The notes under the pieces: generated by a model
Told to the model about the DNA's origin: nothing
The model's database searches: none
The model's input: the letters and a program-made list of their open reading frames with translations, nothing else
Position numbers and translations under genes: made by a program
Part shown: positions 310-63,585 of the stretch, one piece after another
Layout of the letters: every line of letters starts with the position of its first letter
Position numbering within the stretch: position 1 is the first letter of the stretch
Source of the DNA: an uncultured Clostridia bacterium
GTDB lineage: Bacteria; Bacillota; Clostridia; Christensenellales; CAG-314
NCBI GenBank assembly: GCA_947625725.1
Contig: CANQPI010000006.1
Coordinates: 16,383 to 80,382, forward strand
Direction: 5' to 3'
DNA: 64,000 bases

Positions 310-373
310 TGGCACTTGACAAACGCTTTCAAAAGGTTTATAGTATAGTAAATCGTTACAAGGAGAAAGTAAA

Positions 374-1657
374 TTGAAAAAATATCTACCTCGGTTGGCT
401 GACGGAGAGTTGAACTTACGTTTGCAAGCATTTGGTGCAACTTTGATCGTCGGACCAAAGTGGTGCGGCAAAACTACCACCGCACAACAAGTCGCCAAGA
501 GCAGTATCAGTTTGCAAAATTCGGATATGTTGGCAAGTTACCAACTTTCGGGAGAAACCAAGCCCTCGCTGTTGCTTGCCGGCGACAAGCCTCGTTTGTT
601 GGATGAGTGGCAGGTCGTTCCTCAACTGTGGGACGCGGTGCGGCACCAAGTGGACATCTCGTCTGACAAAGGACTTTTTATACTTACGGGGTCCAACGCC
701 GTGGACGAAACAAAAATTATGCATTCGGGCATAGGACGTATTTCGCGTATGAAGATGTATCCTATGAGTTTGTTCGAATCGGGCGAATCCAACGGAAGCG
801 TTTCGCTGGCGGATATATTTGACGGCGCACAGGTAGAGGCACATTCGGACCTATCCGTCGAGCAACTTATTTTTGCCACTTGCAGGGGCGGTTGGCCCTC
901 GGCATTGGATATTGCGAGCGACAGCGCAAAATTGCTTGTTGCGCAGGACTACATTGACGGCATTTGTCAAACGGAGATATCTTCCGTAGACGGCACAAGG
1001 CGCGACGTATCCAAAACGCGCGTATTGTTGCGTTCCTATGCGCGCAACGTTGCCACTTTGGCAAAAAACACCAATATTTTGCAAGATATCAACGCCAACG
1101 GCGCAACGCTTTCCGTGGGCGCAATGGATAGTTACATCAACGCATTGGAAAGGCTTTTTGTTGTGGAAGATATCCCCGCTTGGTGTCCCGCTATCAGGTC
1201 CGCCTCTGCCATTCGCAGCGGCAAAAAACGCCTGTTTGTCGATCCGTCCATTGCCGTGGCGGCTTTGGGCGTGGATCCGCGTTACTTTTGGACCGACCTC
1301 AAAACGTTTGGCTTTTTGTTCGAAAATCTCTGCGCGCGCGACCTCAAAGCGTACTCGCAAACGCTTGGCGGAGAGTTGTCCTACTACCATGACCGCTACG
1401 GGTTAGAAGCGGACTTCGTTTTGCACCTCAAAGACGGCAGATATGCCTTGATAGAGTGCAAATTGGGCAGTAGCGAAATTGAACAAGGCGCAAAACACCT
1501 GCTGCAACTCAACCAATTGCTGCAACAGCACAACAGCGACAACGCGGCGTGTCCGATCGCGCTTCCGTCGGCAATGGTGGTGCTTACGGGCGGACAAGTT
1601 TCCTACCGCCGAGCCGACGGCGTGTACGTGGTTGCCTTGGGCTGTCTGCGCGATTGA
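374..1657 (+). CDS. AAA-type ATPase (AAA_14/DUF4143-like), copy 1
   Basis: 427-aa ORF; Walker A GPKWCGKT, LLDEWQ, TGSN motif; C-terminal DxxLxxxxGRYALIECKLG-like DUF4143/nuclease-fold region. Confidence 0.75.
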   Translation: MKKYLPRLADGELNLRLQAFGATLIVGPKWCGKTTTAQQVAKSSISLQNSDMLASYQLSGETKPSLLLAGDKPRLLDEWQVVPQLWDAVRHQVDISSDKGLFILTGSNAVDETKIMHSGIGRISRMKMYPMSLFESGESNGSVSLADIFDGAQVEAHSDLSVEQLIFATCRGGWPSALDIASDSAKLLVAQDYIDGICQTEISSVDGTRRDVSKTRVLLRSYARNVATLAKNTNILQDINANGATLSVGAMDSYINALERLFVVEDIPAWCPAIRSASAIRSGKKRLFVDPSIAVAALGVDPRYFWTDLKTFGFLFENLCARDLKAYSQTLGGELSYYHDRYGLEADFVLHLKDGRYALIECKLGSSEIEQGAKHLLQLNQLLQQHNSDNAACPIALPSAMVVLTGGQVSYRRADGVYVVALGCLRD

Positions 1658-45289: not shown

Positions 45290-54782
<9,493 letters not shown>

Positions 54783-54872: not shown

Positions 54873-56723
54873 TTACAGCGATTTTATCCAGATGTATTGC
54901 GCGTAGCCGTATGTTTCCATATAGGGGTTGTTCGGCGTAACAAAATTGTATGCGTTTTGTTCGGAGTCGGTTACGTTCATTGTTTCGCCCGCAACGGCGG
55001 GATCTGTTTCGTAAGCCAACGGGTACGCTTTCCAACCCACGGTATCTTGAAAGACAACGTTTTGCAACGCGGAACTGCGAAATGCGAAATTGCCTATGCG
55101 AGTTACGCTTGCAGGGATAGTCACGCTGTCAAAGCGGCAGTATTCGAACGCGCTGTTACCTATTGTTTGCAGTCCGTTCGGCAGTGTAACAGCCGTCAAC
55201 GCCGTGTATTCGAATGACCCCATGCCCAAAATTTTTACGCCGCCGCCCAATTTGACGTTTGTCAATGCGGAACAGTAGGCAAAGGCATATTCTTCTATTT
55301 CCGTCACGCTGTCGGGCACTATCACGGTGTTAATTTTGGCGCATTGCATAAAGGCTTTCGAAGCGATCGCTACCACGGGTTTGCTGTTGTAAACGGAGGG
55401 TATGCGCACGTCCGTTTCTATGGAGTAGTAGTCGTAGCCCGTCACGACGTAGCCCTGACGTACTTCGTCGTATTCCAGATTGAGCGCGCCCGAAACAGCC
55501 AATTCGTATCCGCACACGCCGCAAGGCTCGCCGTCGTGGGCGGCGCGCGTCGATTCTATCGTTTCGCCGCACAGGGAGCAATTTTTCCAATGTTCCGTTT
55601 TGCCTTGAACCCAATCGCCGCCGACGCATTGGTGCGGTTTGGTGTAGCCGCACACCGAGCAGACCGCCGCCTTGTCGTCGTAGACGTGCGAACTCAAATC
55701 TTGTTTCAAATCGGCGTGTTCGCAAGTGGAAGCGTGCCAATGTCCCAACTCGTCCGAAGTCCAAGTCTGGGCGTAGGAGTGTTCGTGAGGCTTGACCTCC
55801 ACTCCCTCGCCGTACACGCGCTCGCAACTAACGGTGGTGTTGCCGCTGCCGTAGTGTACCGTAATGCGGTAGTAACCGTTTGTTCCGACAAAGGTTATAT
55901 TGCCCCCGCCGTTGCCGCCGAGCAGTTGTTTGGAGTCTGTCGAAACGTTGCTCGCGTTCAGTTCGTCGCTCCAATAGCCGCCTCCGCCGTCGTTGACTAT
56001 CTTAAATTCGTCGCCCGAGGAGAACTGTCTTTCAAACACGTACTGCGTACTGCCGTTGGAGTCGGTGGCGAGCAAGCGGTGGAATTGCCACTCGTCGTTG
56101 TGGTATTCGCCCCAACCTTTGCCGTCGGGACGGTCGTCGGTAAACGTGCCGATTATCCAGAAGTTGCGAGTCTGCAAATTTCCCGAAGCGGGCGCGTCGT
56201 AGGCGTATCCGCAACTGCACAGATAGTTGGCTTGTTGCGTGTGAGGAGTCTTTGCGCCCGTTATGCCGCAGTGAGTGCACAGTTGCCAATGGTGCGTGGC
56301 GTCGCGCGCGGTGACGTAGGTGTGAGCGTTGCCGTCGTCGGGCTTTACGTAGTCGCAACCAACACATTTGTTGCTACCGTCGGCGTAACTGTGTTCTTGG
56401 TGATCCGTCGTTTGACCGCAACTACATTCTTTCCAATGTTCGGTATCGTTGTAGCGCACGTTGAAAACATGCTGGTGCGAGTCGTCGTCGATATTTACGG
56501 GCGACATCTGGTAGCCGCATTCGTCGCAAAAACCGTTGTTGTCGTCGTCAAAGTGAGCGGCGCGGCTGTCGGGTTTTTCTTCGCCGTCGTCTACGCATAT
56601 TTGCCAATGTTCTTCGGAATTGCTGTGCATGCTCCAATCGTGTCGGTGCGAGTCGCACGCCGCGAGCGACAACGTGAAAACAACAATTATTGCCGTCAAT
56701 ATCGCAAATATCTTGTTTTTCAT
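54873..56723 (-). CDS. Lipoprotein with HxW..C..CG repeats and C-terminal BspA-type leucine-rich repeats
   Basis: MKNKIFAILTAIIVVFTLSLAACDS lipobox; W..C..CG units; INTVIVPDSVTEIEEYAFAYCSALTNVKLGGGVKILGMGSFEYTALTAVTLPNGLQTIGNSAFEYC. Confidence 0.82.
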   Translation of the reverse strand: MKNKIFAILTAIIVVFTLSLAACDSHRHDWSMHSNSEEHWQICVDDGEEKPDSRAAHFDDDNNGFCDECGYQMSPVNIDDDSHQHVFNVRYNDTEHWKECSCGQTTDHQEHSYADGSNKCVGCDYVKPDDGNAHTYVTARDATHHWQLCTHCGITGAKTPHTQQANYLCSCGYAYDAPASGNLQTRNFWIIGTFTDDRPDGKGWGEYHNDEWQFHRLLATDSNGSTQYVFERQFSSGDEFKIVNDGGGGYWSDELNASNVSTDSKQLLGGNGGGNITFVGTNGYYRITVHYGSGNTTVSCERVYGEGVEVKPHEHSYAQTWTSDELGHWHASTCEHADLKQDLSSHVYDDKAAVCSVCGYTKPHQCVGGDWVQGKTEHWKNCSLCGETIESTRAAHDGEPCGVCGYELAVSGALNLEYDEVRQGYVVTGYDYYSIETDVRIPSVYNSKPVVAIASKAFMQCAKINTVIVPDSVTEIEEYAFAYCSALTNVKLGGGVKILGMGSFEYTALTAVTLPNGLQTIGNSAFEYCRFDSVTIPASVTRIGNFAFRSSALQNVVFQDTVGWKAYPLAYETDPAVAGETMNVTDSEQNAYNFVTPNNPYMETYGYAQYIWIKSL

Positions 56724-56790
56724 ATTTTCCTCCGCCAATTATTTTGACACACGCAAATATTTTTGTCAATGCGTTATTTTACAAAAGCCG

Positions 56791-58230
56791 TCACGTATTG
56801 TTTGCGGAGGGCGTTGACGCGCCGCAAATGGCGTTTGTATGATCGGACGGCGCGTTCAGCAAATTTATCTTTGTCAAAGCGGTTTTGCACAGTAACGCTA
56901 CGGAAATTACCGCCGTCAACAATTCCGCAATGGGAAACGACCACCAAAAACAGCGCACGGGATCGGACGTATAAGAAAACAGCCACACCGCGGGGAAAAC
57001 AAACGCGGCAAGTCGCAGTGCGGATATGAGCAACGGGTACAGCGCGTATCCCAATGCTTGCAACACGCCCTGCACGGCAATGCTCAATCCCATCAACATG
57101 TAACCCGCGCCGCAAATGCGTATAGCCGTAGTTACGACTTCGGTAATTTGTCTGTCGTTTTCGCCGACGGCAAGACCAAACAGTTTTGCAAGCGGAGATG
57201 CAAGCGACTCGAACAGAATTGTCAAAACGGCGCAAACTATCAGCGTGTTTACGATTCCCCATTTGACGCACTGTTTGGAGCGCAAGCCGTTTTTCATTCC
57301 GTAGTTGTAGGACAGCACGGAAATTATGGTATTGGACAGTCCGAAACAAGCGAACATGGCAAATTGCATAATTTTGTAGTACACGCCGAAACTGCCTTGC
57401 GCAAGCGCGGCGTTTTGCCCGAACTTGCCGAGTATCAAATTTACTCCCAACATCATTACCGACAGCAAACCCTGCATAGCGGCGGCGGATAGTCCGATAC
57501 GGTAAATCTCCTTGATAATTTTGCCGCTCGGCGCAATATTTTTGACCCCATTGTGCAATTCTTTGTTTGTAACGTAGTGAAAGATCATTGCCGCCGCCAG
57601 CGAAACCGTCTGCCCGATAACCGTTGCCCACGCGGCTCCCGCCACGCCCCAACCCAACGGATATATGAACGCCCAATCCAACACGATATTTACCGCCGCG
57701 CCGGAAATTTGCGCAATAGTGGAGTACAGCGTTTTGCCCGTGCTTTGCAAAAAACGCTCGTAAATGGTAAAGCCTATTGCGCCGAAACTGCAACAGCAAC
57801 AAATGGTAAGATATTCCGTTCCCATTTCGATCACCTGTTCATCACCTTGCGCTTGCATGGCAATGAAGTAACGCGAGCCGAACAAACCGAAAATCAAAAA
57901 TACGACGTAGATACAAATTCCGAGAAAAATTCCGTTGCCGACCGTTTTGTCCGCCTTGACAAAATTTTTTTCGCCGAGGGATTTGGACAACAGCGCGTTC
58001 AAGCCCACGCCCGTCCCCACGCCTATGGCTATTATCAACAACTGTATGGGAAAGGCATACGTCAACGCCAGGTTTGCCGCCAAGCCGTTTTCGCCCATGT
58101 TTATCACAAAAGCGGTGTCCACAATGTTGTAGACGGCTTGCAACGTCATGGAAATTATCATTGGCAAACCCATTTGCCAAATCAATGTATTGATGGGTTT
58201 GTAGGACATTTTGTTTTGTTTTTCTTGCAT
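56791..58230 (-). CDS. MATE family efflux transporter
   Basis: INTLIWQMGLPMIISMTLQAVYNIVDTAFVINMGENGLAANLALTYAFPIQLLIIAIGVGTGVGLNALLSKSLGE; polytopic. Confidence 0.93.
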   Translation of the reverse strand: MQEKQNKMSYKPINTLIWQMGLPMIISMTLQAVYNIVDTAFVINMGENGLAANLALTYAFPIQLLIIAIGVGTGVGLNALLSKSLGEKNFVKADKTVGNGIFLGICIYVVFLIFGLFGSRYFIAMQAQGDEQVIEMGTEYLTICCCCSFGAIGFTIYERFLQSTGKTLYSTIAQISGAAVNIVLDWAFIYPLGWGVAGAAWATVIGQTVSLAAAMIFHYVTNKELHNGVKNIAPSGKIIKEIYRIGLSAAAMQGLLSVMMLGVNLILGKFGQNAALAQGSFGVYYKIMQFAMFACFGLSNTIISVLSYNYGMKNGLRSKQCVKWGIVNTLIVCAVLTILFESLASPLAKLFGLAVGENDRQITEVVTTAIRICGAGYMLMGLSIAVQGVLQALGYALYPLLISALRLAAFVFPAVWLFSYTSDPVRCFWWSFPIAELLTAVISVALLCKTALTKINLLNAPSDHTNAICGASTPSANNT

Positions 58231-58237
58231 TTTTTTT

Positions 58238-58303
58238 TTACCTCCGAACAGCAAAAAACAGGCGCAAATCCACAATTGGATTTACGCCTGCTTTGCCACA
58301 CAT
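58238..58303 (-). CDS. Putative 21-aa leader peptide upstream of the MATE gene
   Basis: ATG TGT GGC AAA GCA GGC GTA AAT CCA ... CGG AGG TAA = MCGKAGVNPIVDLRLFFAVRR; stop overlaps the MATE SD region. Confidence 0.6.
   Translation of the reverse strand: MCGKAGVNPIVDLRLFFAVRR
58254..58291 (-). terminator. Intrinsic terminator/attenuator within the MATE leader
   Basis: Minus strand caggcgtaaatccaattgtggatttgcgcctgttttttgc: ~13-bp stem plus T6. Confidence 0.75.
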
Positions 58304-58312
58304 TGTACTTTG

Positions 58313-58341
58313 ATTATATGCTTTTTTTGTCAAAAAGTCAA
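58313..58341 (-). promoter_or_regulatory. Promoter of the MATE leader
   Basis: Minus strand TTGACT (58336-58341), 17-bp spacer, TATAAT (58313-58318). Confidence 0.8.
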
Positions 58342-58368: not shown

Positions 58369-59157
58369 TTATCGTAGAGGCAGGGCGTTCAACTCTGCTA
58401 TGCGTTCGGTAAAACTCACCTTGTCGCGCCGTTTCAGATCCTCGTTCCACCGTGCGGAAACAAGCGCGTATATGCAGTAGATGGGTACTGCGCCGAGGTT
58501 TGTTTCCACCAGACTGTTGACCACAAGCGTGCGCAATTTGTCCCACACGTCAACTATCGCCGCACTGCGTATGTTGCCTATCAGCAGCGAAAACTCCCAG
58601 CCGAGTTGCACGCTTACGCCGATTGCAAACAGGAACAACAGCGGAAAACGCTTTGTTTTGTCCTTTTGGAAAAGATTGTACGCAATTGCGGCAAAGTACC
58701 CCGCGATCATTATCAATGCCATATATCCGTGGTACGAGCCGGTGGTGCGTTGTATTTTGATGACGGGCGCGTTTGCGCCGACGGCTTCGGCAAGCATGGG
58801 CGCGCATATCCACCACACAAGTATCAACAGCGTCCAGGTCCACGCCTGTTTGTCGCGACTGAACCACAGCCATATCCACACAAAGTTGGTAATGCCGTAA
58901 CTCATGCTCATCCACAACAGCACCCAAAACAGATTGCCGCCCTCGATTGTGCGCGTGTGCAACGCCAGATGAAATATGCCGTAGTCCACGATCATGTAGA
59001 GAACGCCGCCCGCCAAGCCGAACAGCAACGTCAGCCATTTGCGCTTGACGGCGAGTAGCACGCACAACCCCACAACAAACGCCGTGTCCAGCCAGATGTA
59101 CGCGGTATTGAAAACTCTTTGGGCAACAACTTCCGCCCCAAGCAGATTGATTAGCAT
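58369..59157 (-). CDS. Hypothetical polytopic membrane protein
   Basis: 262 aa, multiple hydrophobic segments, Trp-rich. Confidence 0.7.
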   Translation of the reverse strand: MLINLLGAEVVAQRVFNTAYIWLDTAFVVGLCVLLAVKRKWLTLLFGLAGGVLYMIVDYGIFHLALHTRTIEGGNLFWVLLWMSMSYGITNFVWIWLWFSRDKQAWTWTLLILVWWICAPMLAEAVGANAPVIKIQRTTGSYHGYMALIMIAGYFAAIAYNLFQKDKTKRFPLLFLFAIGVSVQLGWEFSLLIGNIRSAAIVDVWDKLRTLVVNSLVETNLGAVPIYCIYALVSARWNEDLKRRDKVSFTERIAELNALPLR

Positions 59158-59759: not shown

Positions 59760-61382
59760 ATGTCGAAAAATATATCCAAAGAAAAACGTGACAGTTTGAT
59801 AGAAAAAATCAAAGCGATCAAAGCATACATTTCTTGCGCTCCGCAGGACGAAAACACGAAAGCGCTATTGACTTTTGTTGCGGAAATCGAAAAAGATATC
59901 AAGGGCAAAAAGTACGGACTTGTTTTTGAAGAACACCGCGAAGCCGTTGACGAATTGTTGGCAACGCACACTCCCGTGCTTACGGAAGAAAAGGAATTGT
60001 TCATTGACAACGGCGGCACAATGAATTTTCTCATTGAGGGCGACAATCTTGCCGCTCTCAAATTGCTCGAAAAGACGCACAAAGGCAAAATCGACGTTAT
60101 TTACATAGACCCACCCTACAACACGGGGAACAAGGACTTTGTGTATGACGACGATTTCGTTGACGCAAACGATACTTTTCGGCACAGTAAATGGCTGTCA
60201 TTTATGGAAAAACGCCTTATCATTGCAAAAAGTTTATTATCCGAAAATGGTGTTATTTTTATTAGTATCGACGATAACGAACAGGCAACGCTTAAATTGT
60301 TGTGCGATGAAATTTTGGGCGCAGAAAATTTTGAAAGTATAATTTGGCAAAAGAAGGGAGGTGCAGGCAATACAGAACGAATAATTGGTTGTTTAACCGA
60401 ATATGTTCTATGTTTTTTCAAAGAAAAGAAAGCGGGAGTATTTAGATACCGCGACATAAAAAGAACATATAATTTTGTGGACGACATAGGGGAATACAAT
60501 CTTGAAGGCATAGAAAAAACAAATAGTGGTATATATGAAAGAGTTACAATGCAGTTTCCAATTATCGATCCCGAAACGGGTGAGAAATTTTATCCAAAAC
60601 CCGGCATGCGATGGACAATTGGAAAAAAAGGCATTGATGAGGCACTTCAAAACAACAAATTGTACTTTGATTACAAAAAGAAGAAGGTTTACTATATTAA
60701 ACGAAAAGAAGATTATCAAAAAAGTGAAAATGTTTTTTATAATTTATTGCTTGAACATGGAAGTTTGTCAATTGCAAAGAATGAAATGAAAGACATTTTT
60801 GGGAGTAGGGAGATTTTTGATACCCCAAAACCATTGTCATTGGTTTCTCATTTACTAAATTTAACATCAATTAGTAAACCCATTATTCTCGACTTTTTTG
60901 CGGGCAGTGGGACGACGGGACATGCCGTCATGAAACTCAATGCCGAGGACGGCGGGAATCGTACGTTCATTCTATGCACCAACAACGAAAATAACATTTG
61001 CCGCGAAGTGACGTATGAGCGTATCAAGCGCGTCATTGCGCGCGACAACTATGCCGCGAGTATGAAATACTACAAGGTGGAGTACGTCCCCATATCGGAA
61101 AAACTTTACTATGAATACGCCGACGAACTTTTGAAACATATCCGAGAACTCGTCGAGTTGGAAAACGGTATCAATTTTGTTGGCAACGACGAGATCGCCA
61201 TTCTCCTCACCGAGGAAGAATTGGACAAGTTTGCGGCTACGCTTGACGAAAAAACAAAGTGCAAAACAATTTACCTTGGGCACGACGTGCTTACAAGCGA
61301 AACGCAAGAAAAGATTTTCAAAAAATACAACATTACAGTCAACGTGATACCCGATTACTATTACAGGGAGTTGGAGGGTTGA
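59760..61382 (+). CDS. Type III R-M DNA methyltransferase (Mod)
   Basis: NFLIEGDNLAALKLLEKTHKGKIDVIYIDPPYNTGNKDFVYDDDF (DPPY); ILDFFAGSGTTGHAVMKLN (FxGxG). Confidence 0.95.
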   Translation: MSKNISKEKRDSLIEKIKAIKAYISCAPQDENTKALLTFVAEIEKDIKGKKYGLVFEEHREAVDELLATHTPVLTEEKELFIDNGGTMNFLIEGDNLAALKLLEKTHKGKIDVIYIDPPYNTGNKDFVYDDDFVDANDTFRHSKWLSFMEKRLIIAKSLLSENGVIFISIDDNEQATLKLLCDEILGAENFESIIWQKKGGAGNTERIIGCLTEYVLCFFKEKKAGVFRYRDIKRTYNFVDDIGEYNLEGIEKTNSGIYERVTMQFPIIDPETGEKFYPKPGMRWTIGKKGIDEALQNNKLYFDYKKKKVYYIKRKEDYQKSENVFYNLLLEHGSLSIAKNEMKDIFGSREIFDTPKPLSLVSHLLNLTSISKPIILDFFAGSGTTGHAVMKLNAEDGGNRTFILCTNNENNICREVTYERIKRVIARDNYAASMKYYKVEYVPISEKLYYEYADELLKHIRELVELENGINFVGNDEIAILLTEEELDKFAATLDEKTKCKTIYLGHDVLTSETQEKIFKKYNITVNVIPDYYYRELEG

Positions 61383-61383
61383 T

Positions 61384-63585
61384 ATGAATATCAGATTGGC
61401 GGATTTTCAGTTAGAAGCAGTCGGTCAGTTGCTTGAAAGTATGAGCGAGGCGTGCCGCGACATTATTTTGAAAAGTCCCACAGGCAGCGGGAAGACGATC
61501 ATTTTGACTCGGTTTATGGACGAGTACATGAAAGGGCATGCAAAAACCGTGTTTGTTTGGCTCACGCCCGGCAAAGGAAACCTCGAAGAGCAAAGCAAGG
61601 CAAAAATGGACAAATATATCCACAATGCGCAGACAAAGTTGCTTGCAGACGTTATGACCGGCGGTTTTGCGGAAAACGACGCTTGCTTTATCAATTGGGA
61701 AAAGTTAACAAAAAAGGGCAACAACGCCTTGAAAGACAGCGAGCGCACAAACTTTTTGGAATGGATCGAAAAGGCGTTGGACGCGGGGCTGTCGTTTAAG
61801 GTCGTTATCGACGAAAGTCACCAAAACTTTACCGAAAAGGCAGACGCGGTCGTGCAACTTTTTCGCACCGACAAAATTATTCGCTGTTCCGCCACACCGA
61901 TTATCGACAAGCGGGCAAAACTTGTCGAAGTCCCCGAGGAACGCGTTATTGCCGAGGGTTTGATAAAAAAGTTGCTCGTTATCAACGAAAATTTTCCTCA
62001 GATAATCGAAATAAACGATCAAACGGAATATTTGCTCGAACAGGCTCTCGCAAAACAACGCGAACTCCGTTCGGCGTTTCTTCAACGAAAAATCGCCGTC
62101 AATCCTCTCATTATCGTGCAACTTCCAAACAACTCCGATTTACTTTTGGACGCAGTGGAAAAGTATTTTGAAAAAAACGGAATTACATACGAATCGGGAA
62201 CGCTTGCCGTGTGGCTCTCGGATAGGCATGAAAATCTCGACGGTATCTCCGAAAACGCCGCCGCGCCAATTGCGGTGATAATCAAACAGGCAATCGCTAC
62301 GGGTTGGGACTGTCCCCGCGCACATATTCTTGTAAAATTGCGCGAAAACATGGACGAAACATTTGAGGTACAGACGATCGGGCGCATACGTCGTATGCCC
62401 GAGGCAAAGCAGTACGACGTTGACTTGTTGGATAGTTGCTATCTCTATACGTTTGACAGCACGTTTACGCAGGGCGTAAAAGCGAGTTTTGGCAAGCGGG
62501 CGTTGGACGCCAAAATTTTATTTATCAAAAACGAACATAAAACATTTTCGCTTACAAAAGAACAGCGCACAACGGTTACGGATATGCGCGACTCCCGCAA
62601 GGCGCTTGCTGCGATATCCGCGTACTTAAAATCAACTTATGCGTTGACGGGCGACAAAAAGCAGAACAGACTCAAATTGCAAAGTCAAGGGTTTGTTTTT
62701 TCCGACCAAATTGTGCGATATGCTTACTCCGGCAAGGTGTCTATGTTTTGGGAACTTTACGAAAAAGACAGGTTAAACGCACTTGAAATGAGAGAACCGA
62801 TCAACACACACGTTCACGGACGGGAATATCATCATCGGGTAGGACAAATCGGCATGGCAATCGGTATGGAGTATGCCAAAATGAATACCATTATCGGCAA
62901 ACTGTTTTCCGACAAGTTTTCCTTTGCGGGACAGGTACTCGATTTGACCGTACGCGAACTCTATGCGTTTGTGATCAACAACATGGACGCGCTTCGGCAT
63001 TTATGCCGCGAGGCAATGGCGGCAGAGTTGGCACAGGAGTCGCTTGCACCCGATATGATTTCCGAAAAGTCATTTTGTATTCCGCGTAGCGTATCGTTTA
63101 CTTATGACGCAACAAGCAAAGTTCAAGCGGAGAGCGCAAAGAACGTCTATCAAGGCTATTTGCTGTCGGCAGAACCGCGCTCGGCTCCGGAGAAAAAATT
63201 TGAAAAGTTTTGCGAAAATTGCAACGCGGTGGATTGGTTTTACAAAAACGGCGACAAGGGCGACGAATATTTTTCGATAGTGTATTGCGACAACGCCAAC
63301 AAGCAAAAACTCTTTTACCCCGATTACATTCTATCCGTCGGCGGCGAAACGTGGATAGTAGAAACAAAAGGCGGGTTTGATCGTACGGGCGCAAGCGAAG
63401 ATATAGACGTTTTTTCTCCGAAAAAGTTCGGAGTATTGCGCGCTTATCTGAAAAAGCACGCTCTAAAAGGCGGCTTTGTGCGCTTTGATGACCAAAGCGA
63501 AGAACTTTGTATTTGCACGGAAGAGTACAGCGACGATATTCATTCGGATAATTGGAAGTTGCTACGCGATATTTTCAAAAAATAA
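61384..63585 (+). CDS. Type III R-M restriction subunit (Res), SF2 helicase plus C-terminal PD-(D/E)xK
   Basis: Walker A SPTGSGKT, VIDESHQ, IGRIRRMPEA, C-terminal YPDYILSVGGETWIVETKGG (D...ExK). Confidence 0.92.
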   Translation: MNIRLADFQLEAVGQLLESMSEACRDIILKSPTGSGKTIILTRFMDEYMKGHAKTVFVWLTPGKGNLEEQSKAKMDKYIHNAQTKLLADVMTGGFAENDACFINWEKLTKKGNNALKDSERTNFLEWIEKALDAGLSFKVVIDESHQNFTEKADAVVQLFRTDKIIRCSATPIIDKRAKLVEVPEERVIAEGLIKKLLVINENFPQIIEINDQTEYLLEQALAKQRELRSAFLQRKIAVNPLIIVQLPNNSDLLLDAVEKYFEKNGITYESGTLAVWLSDRHENLDGISENAAAPIAVIIKQAIATGWDCPRAHILVKLRENMDETFEVQTIGRIRRMPEAKQYDVDLLDSCYLYTFDSTFTQGVKASFGKRALDAKILFIKNEHKTFSLTKEQRTTVTDMRDSRKALAAISAYLKSTYALTGDKKQNRLKLQSQGFVFSDQIVRYAYSGKVSMFWELYEKDRLNALEMREPINTHVHGREYHHRVGQIGMAIGMEYAKMNTIIGKLFSDKFSFAGQVLDLTVRELYAFVINNMDALRHLCREAMAAELAQESLAPDMISEKSFCIPRSVSFTYDATSKVQAESAKNVYQGYLLSAEPRSAPEKKFEKFCENCNAVDWFYKNGDKGDEYFSIVYCDNANKQKLFYPDYILSVGGETWIVETKGGFDRTGASEDIDVFSPKKFGVLRAYLKKHALKGGFVRFDDQSEELCICTEEYSDDIHSDNWKLLRDIFKK

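Follow-up and report, generated by a model that had tools for sequence, protein, structure and literature searches.

The window, by which the whole analysed stretch of 64,000 nucleotides is meant, encodes on its minus strand a MATE family exporter that was assigned by profile searches (Pfam MatE, 8.7e-35; TIGR00797, above its cut-off), in agreement with the preliminary description of the locus as an efflux gene. The short region in front of this gene carries a promoter, a nearly leaderless 21-codon open reading frame (ORF) and a terminator hairpin, all of which had been noted in that description and all of which were recovered on the minus strand where it had placed them. The features of the leader, including a second and alternative fold that is made up of two short helices (P1 and P2) separated by an internal loop, are as follows.

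58336..58341, minus strand: -35 box TTGACT, which together with the -10 box matches the consensus at 11 of 12 positions across a 17-nt spacer
58313..58318, minus strand: -10 box TATAAT; the predicted transcription start, at about 58306-58305, is the first base of P1
58302..58305, minus strand: 5' strand of P1, CAAU, a covarying helix of 4 bp
58297..58301, minus strand: 5' side of the internal loop, GUGUG (consensus GxGUN), conserved columns in both leader alignments
58295..58296, minus strand: 5' strand of P2, GC; 2 pairs in the window copy, 3 or 4 in many relatives
58286..58287, minus strand: 3' strand of P2, GC, the partner of 58295..58296
58277..58285, minus strand: 3' side of the internal loop, GUAAAUCCA (consensus GUAARUCCR), near-invariant in the alignment and also part of the terminator 5' arm
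58273..58276, minus strand: 3' strand of P1, AUUG, a covarying helix strand that is also the terminator loop
58255..58294, minus strand: terminator hairpin predicted by folding, 18 pairs (7 G-C), loop ATTG
58253..58258, minus strand: T6 tract of the terminator, from sequence
58238..58303, minus strand: 21-codon ORF MCGKAGVNPIVDLRLFFAVRR, probably no functional gene, its start codon and frame not being conserved
58303-58301, minus strand: ATG of that ORF, 9 nt after the -10 box
58240-58238, minus strand: TAA of that ORF, just 3' of CGGAGG, and so in the Shine-Dalgarno region of the MATE gene, as had been described
58241..58246, minus strand: CGGAGG, the Shine-Dalgarno-like sequence of the MATE gene
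56791..58230, minus strand: MATE family exporter of 479 aa, the gene under putative control, with its ATG at 58230

Upstream of this leader, 58369-59157 (minus strand) encodes a membrane-type protein of 262 aa and is preceded by a perfect promoter (TTGACA-17-TATAAT), and searches of Pfam, NCBIfam and plasmids returned no match for the protein. Directly downstream of the MATE gene lies a BspA-type LRR_5 repeat protein (54873-56738, minus strand) with cysteine-histidine motifs that resemble those of the protein encoded at 49185-54782 on the plus strand. The latter, a secreted protein of 1865 aa, combines repeated C-x-x-C modules with DUF285 and a peptidase domain of the M60 (enhancin-like) type, and is likely to be a surface enzyme acting on mucins or glycoproteins. 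On the other side, an N6_N4_Mtase DNA methylase and a neighboring ResIII/DEAD protein (59760-63585, plus strand) probably constitute a type III restriction-modification system.

The leader folds with an energy of -33.2 kcal/mol, as compared to -20.4 +/- 2.8 kcal/mol for shuffled sequences (z = -4.6; 0 of 200 shuffles were as good), in keeping with the strong hairpin and T6 tract previously noted before the MATE gene. A single copy of the element is present in this genome. Within the genus and across other families of the order, MATE orthologues (60-81% identity) are preceded by the same leader, behind upstream flanks that are unrelated to one another, indicating that its recurrence is more than chance; it was not seen upstream of the MATE homologues of less than about 45% identity that came from the same orthologue search (L019-L031). 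In an alignment of 15 leaders, conservation falls into two blocks: RTGNGTNGY, where the RNA is predicted to begin, and GCGTAARTCC, within the terminator's 5' arm. Within the terminator, the 5' arm sequence GUAARUCC is near-invariant and the 3' arm mostly follows it through pairing and G-U wobble, as would be expected if the 5' arm had a second role. The consensus of the element, 5'-NNRY GxGUN GCnn...nnGC GUAARUCCR RYNN-3', describes a hairpin in which P1 is separated from P2 by the internal loop. A first pairing idea, between AGUNG in the 5' strand and CRRCU beside the loop, failed for the GUGU type; moving the pairing register one position upstream gave P1, which fits nearly all elements. UAAGUC also looks like the decoding site of 16S rRNA, a resemblance that was set aside, the R position being A in many copies.

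The P1-P2 fold is supported by covariation. Among 29 aligned sequences, P1 and P2 are paired in 92.0% of cells, versus 75.9% with shuffled partners and 20-51% when the partners were slid, and 39 cells are changed on both sides where shuffling gives 14.8; one pair of P1 occurs in all four Watson-Crick forms (GC in 13, AU in 11, UA in 3 and CG in 2 sequences) and is broken in none. A larger set of 116 distinct elements (among the matches listed) was fetched from named genomes by a pattern that leaves both P1 strands free, and it was not used for deriving the structure. The inner three pairs of P1 are all formed in 108 of these elements as opposed to 31 +/- 4 in 5000 shuffles (maximum 47), and in a second set, obtained with a covariance model in which P1 was left unpaired, P1 is present in 27 of 30 as opposed to 14.1 +/- 1.6, although such shuffle statistics leave the relatedness among the sequences in place. 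The helices that form P1 include pairs as dissimilar as CAAT/ATTG, TGTT/AACA, ATGT/ACAT, CATC/GATG, AAGC/GCTT, TAAT/ATTA and GATC/GATC, while P2 often takes the form GC-GAAA-GC (21 of 119 elements). Judged by these sequence data, the element is very probably a structured cis-regulatory RNA.

Diverged copies of the element were gathered by two rounds of covariance-model searching and by a pattern scan of named genomes. At E <= 0.001, the covariance-model searches recovered it in 42 of 392 genomes of the class and in 15 of 399 genomes of the phylum, and in all the element was found ahead of exporter genes in well above 100 bacterial genomes, which belong to Clostridia, Bacilli and, apparently, Spirochaetota. 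Named records among the matches listed are Ruminococcus flavefaciens XPD3002, Eubacterium barkeri and Breznakia pachnodae, and further ones are Mogibacterium kristiansenii, Anaeroplasmataceae and a Treponema bin. Since most of the genomes are metagenome bins, single outliers such as a planctomycete bin (L183) may be misbinned. When the core pattern was applied to 332 genomes without the requirement for a terminator, 6 genomes matched, all at sites already found with the terminator model, such that no translational variants were detected; the reversed core pattern gave 0 matches in the same search.

Downstream of 119 elements are 80 MATE genes (35 encoding proteins with at least 40% identity to the MATE protein of the window and 45 below that), 17 MFS genes and 17 other genes, the remaining 5 being cut off at contig or locus ends. 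The genes that follow the element include several MATE subfamilies as well as MFS exporters, and it is typical of riboswitches that one RNA precedes unrelated exporters. Profile searches identified MFS_1 (L122, L183), DUF2798 (L131), a putative esterase (L121), BD-FAE (L182), Cytidylate_kin2 (L148) and TetR (L215), and a tannase-like secreted enzyme is encoded at L120 (NCBIfam tannase_A, 2.5e-136, yet below the cut-off of that model). Genes for DUF2798, tannase-like and esterase proteins are rare in this position. Families f82 and f48 have second elements, which are associated with MATE except for L255, probably a false element.

The two folds of the leader compete for the same nucleotides: the 5' arm of the terminator takes in the 3' side of the internal loop, and the terminator loop is formed from the 3' strand of P1, so that the P1-P2 fold and the terminator are mutually exclusive. 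The predicted energy of the P1-P2 fold is small (median of about -1.0 kcal/mol, and +0.6 kcal/mol in the window copy) beside that of the terminator (about -27 kcal/mol), which suggests that termination is the default and that a stabilizing ligand or factor would be needed early. In 100 of the 119 elements, P1 follows the end of the best -10-like hexamer at a distance of 5-9 nt, a spacing from which the RNA is expected to begin at or next to P1. Less favorable to a switch is nearest-neighbor folding of the RNA up to P1, which predicts the first two pairs of P2 in 49 of these elements and both helices in only 18, and so is the short P2 of the window copy, with its 2 pairs. In the mechanism proposed here, the transcript would start at P1 and, when no signal is present, the growing RNA would fold into the strong terminator, with transcription ending before the exporter gene. 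A signal, most likely a small molecule that is removed by the exporters, would bind the invariant loop (GxGUN / GUAARUCCR) and stabilize P1-P2 before the 3' arm of the terminator is made; P1-P2 would then hold the 5' arm of the terminator and polymerase would read through into the MATE gene. A covarying fold with near-invariant unpaired bases in the 5' leader, an expression platform with exclusive states and several non-homologous genes downstream are features expected of a riboswitch, and from these we infer ligand binding, the small-molecule nature of the ligand and antitermination. The element is hence likely to be a compact (~33-nt) antiterminating ON riboswitch that responds to a small molecule and induces efflux.

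The preliminary description had instead proposed attenuation mediated by a ribosome that stalls on the leaderless 21-codon ORF, a reading that is favored by the position of the ATG beside the predicted transcription start, by the conserved conditional terminator and by the precedent of drug-inducible attenuators of other exporters (BmrCD, PMC4191407; mef/mel, PMC4335068). These systems share with the present element a conditional terminator before an exporter gene, but they need a translated leader peptide, and it is this part of the proposal that does not hold. Across 185 elements, a set that includes some near-identical or overlapping entries, an ATG, GTG or TTG is found at the corresponding place in 107 and is missing in 78; relative to the conserved core, these 107 start codons occupy all three phases (50/32/25), and 49 of the ORFs that they open end within 12 codons. 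Even between the closest orthologues the ORF crosses the hairpin in different frames, and in some of them the product is no longer than MCSCIMA*, MRG* or, with GTG as start, VSSI*. In the alignment of 15 leaders, codons 1-3 vary in their first bases and are fixed in their wobble bases, which is the reverse of a coding constraint. The ATG of the window copy consists of the last two bases of the P1 5' strand (CAAU) and the invariant G, and where P1 has another sequence the ATG is gone while the pairing is retained. The ORF is probably a by-product of the RNA element, the constraint being on RNA structure, which fits a sensing RNA (whether of a ligand or a protein) and not a stalled ribosome. Conservation of both peptide and hairpin had been named as a point on which the proposal would stand or fall; the RNA and its hairpin are kept in relatives and the peptide is not. 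What remains of the proposal is a conditional terminator between promoter and exporter that is conserved with the gene, and control by a translating ribosome is highly improbable. Even less probable is that the palindrome simply ends upstream transcription as a constitutive terminator or binds a repressor as a DNA operator. The strong hairpin with its T6 tract and the palindromic DNA sequence speak for such a reading, but a plain terminator located behind the promoter would silence the MATE gene, the distance between the arms of the palindrome varies among elements, P1 lies outside the palindrome and covaries with its loop, and the upstream flanks of orthologues are unrelated.

An RNA-binding regulator that holds P1-P2 and thereby blocks termination, in principle like LicT or SacY, is a different matter in that the sequence traces expected of a bound protein and of a ligand are alike. 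The RAT antiterminators of the LicT/SacY/BglG type are short hairpins with an asymmetric internal loop that compete with a terminator and that require a dedicated CAT_RBD protein, and the element has a similar anatomy, its hairpin likewise competing with an overlapping terminator just behind a promoter. Its sequence differs from that of RAT, however, and no CAT_RBD protein was found in the genome of the window (93% complete), whereas the control search gave matches in 4 of 14 named genomes, making an antiterminator of the LicT type unlikely. An unsystematic look at the genes adjoining the inspected elements revealed no RNA-binding regulator that stands out, and the element recurs before unrelated genes in many families that belong to several classes, so that control by a protein is considered unlikely overall. 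The element might also belong, as a distant member, to a riboswitch class already described, such as guanidine-IV, Gd4v or the HMP-PP type, since these are likewise ON switches in which a small aptamer is coupled to a terminator. MATE genes are found downstream of guanidine-IV and Gd4v RNAs (PMC9788692), and these RNAs resemble the element in their control of a terminator, in their frequency in Firmicutes and, for guanidine-IV, in being an ON switch. In these RNAs, which measure about 90 nt and were tested as constructs of ~92-105 nt, a pseudoknot links two hairpins, the 3' one being a terminator whose stem takes part in the binding fold (PMC7736828, PMC9788692), whereas the element has other conserved sequences and no such 5' hairpin or pseudoknot: it starts approximately at the predicted start site, and its one hairpin, P1-P2, overlaps the terminator and takes its place within ~50 nt. 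The HMP-PP riboswitch (thiS motif) is also a very small aptamer that overlaps a terminator, with exclusive folds, an ON response and conserved bases inside the terminator hairpin (PMC6478431). In that RNA, P2 of the ON state is the tip of the terminator, a pseudoknot has been proposed and thiamin genes are downstream (PMC6478431), whereas P2 of the element lies in the 5' arm of the terminator and upstream of it, P1-P2 takes that arm without keeping the tip, and exporter genes follow. Searches of Rfam 15 (the window at the gathering threshold, the element and 32 loci by E-value) gave only sub-threshold chance or terminator-like matches at the element among the classes that have a model there, and membership in a known class is very unlikely. 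No description of the element was found in the open papers searched, although an earlier description in subscription papers or supplements is possible, and the main text of those screens by Breaker and colleagues that were searched names no such MATE motif. Judged by its sequence, the element looks like an undescribed riboswitch and not like a leader peptide.

If the preferred reading of a small-molecule riboswitch is true, few known aptamers would be as small, and another example would join the short list of aptamers embedded in a terminator. To our knowledge, most MATE and MFS pumps of gut bacteria have no known natural inducer; with a protein-free sensor upstream of pumps, the substrate of the pump would follow once the ligand is found. 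In three genomes the element is followed by esterase genes, which hint at a ligand of phenolic nature, though these are few cases and a lead only. A fuller version of this idea, which we regard as speculative and rather doubtful, is that the element represents a new riboswitch class, widespread among Clostridia and Bacilli of gut and rumen, with a ~33-nt aptamer, that its ligand is toxic and may be a plant phenolic such as tannase or feruloyl esterase would produce, and that it induces export by unrelated MATE and MFS pumps along with, in some genomes, secreted esterases.

Several variations among the copies were also observed. Position x of the loop (GxGUN) is correlated with position R of GUAARUCC (A-G in 29, U-A in 21, U-G in 7, A-A in 6, C-G in 2 and C-A in 1), possibly reflecting a tertiary contact or two ligand subtypes. 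In L206 and L112 (Mogibacterium kristiansenii), the element is followed by a repetitive ORF (KANELGFLARTPGLKFG repeats) with no exporter start, an arrangement that is perhaps due to a repeat insertion. Finally, two divergent variants, L017 (motif at ~1380-1440, minus strand; AUAAGACC) and L018 (~350-410, plus strand; GUAAGACC), have a longer terminator whose outer part is made by the 5' flank of the element, and in both P1 is kept (CAAU/AUUG and CAAC/GUUG, respectively).
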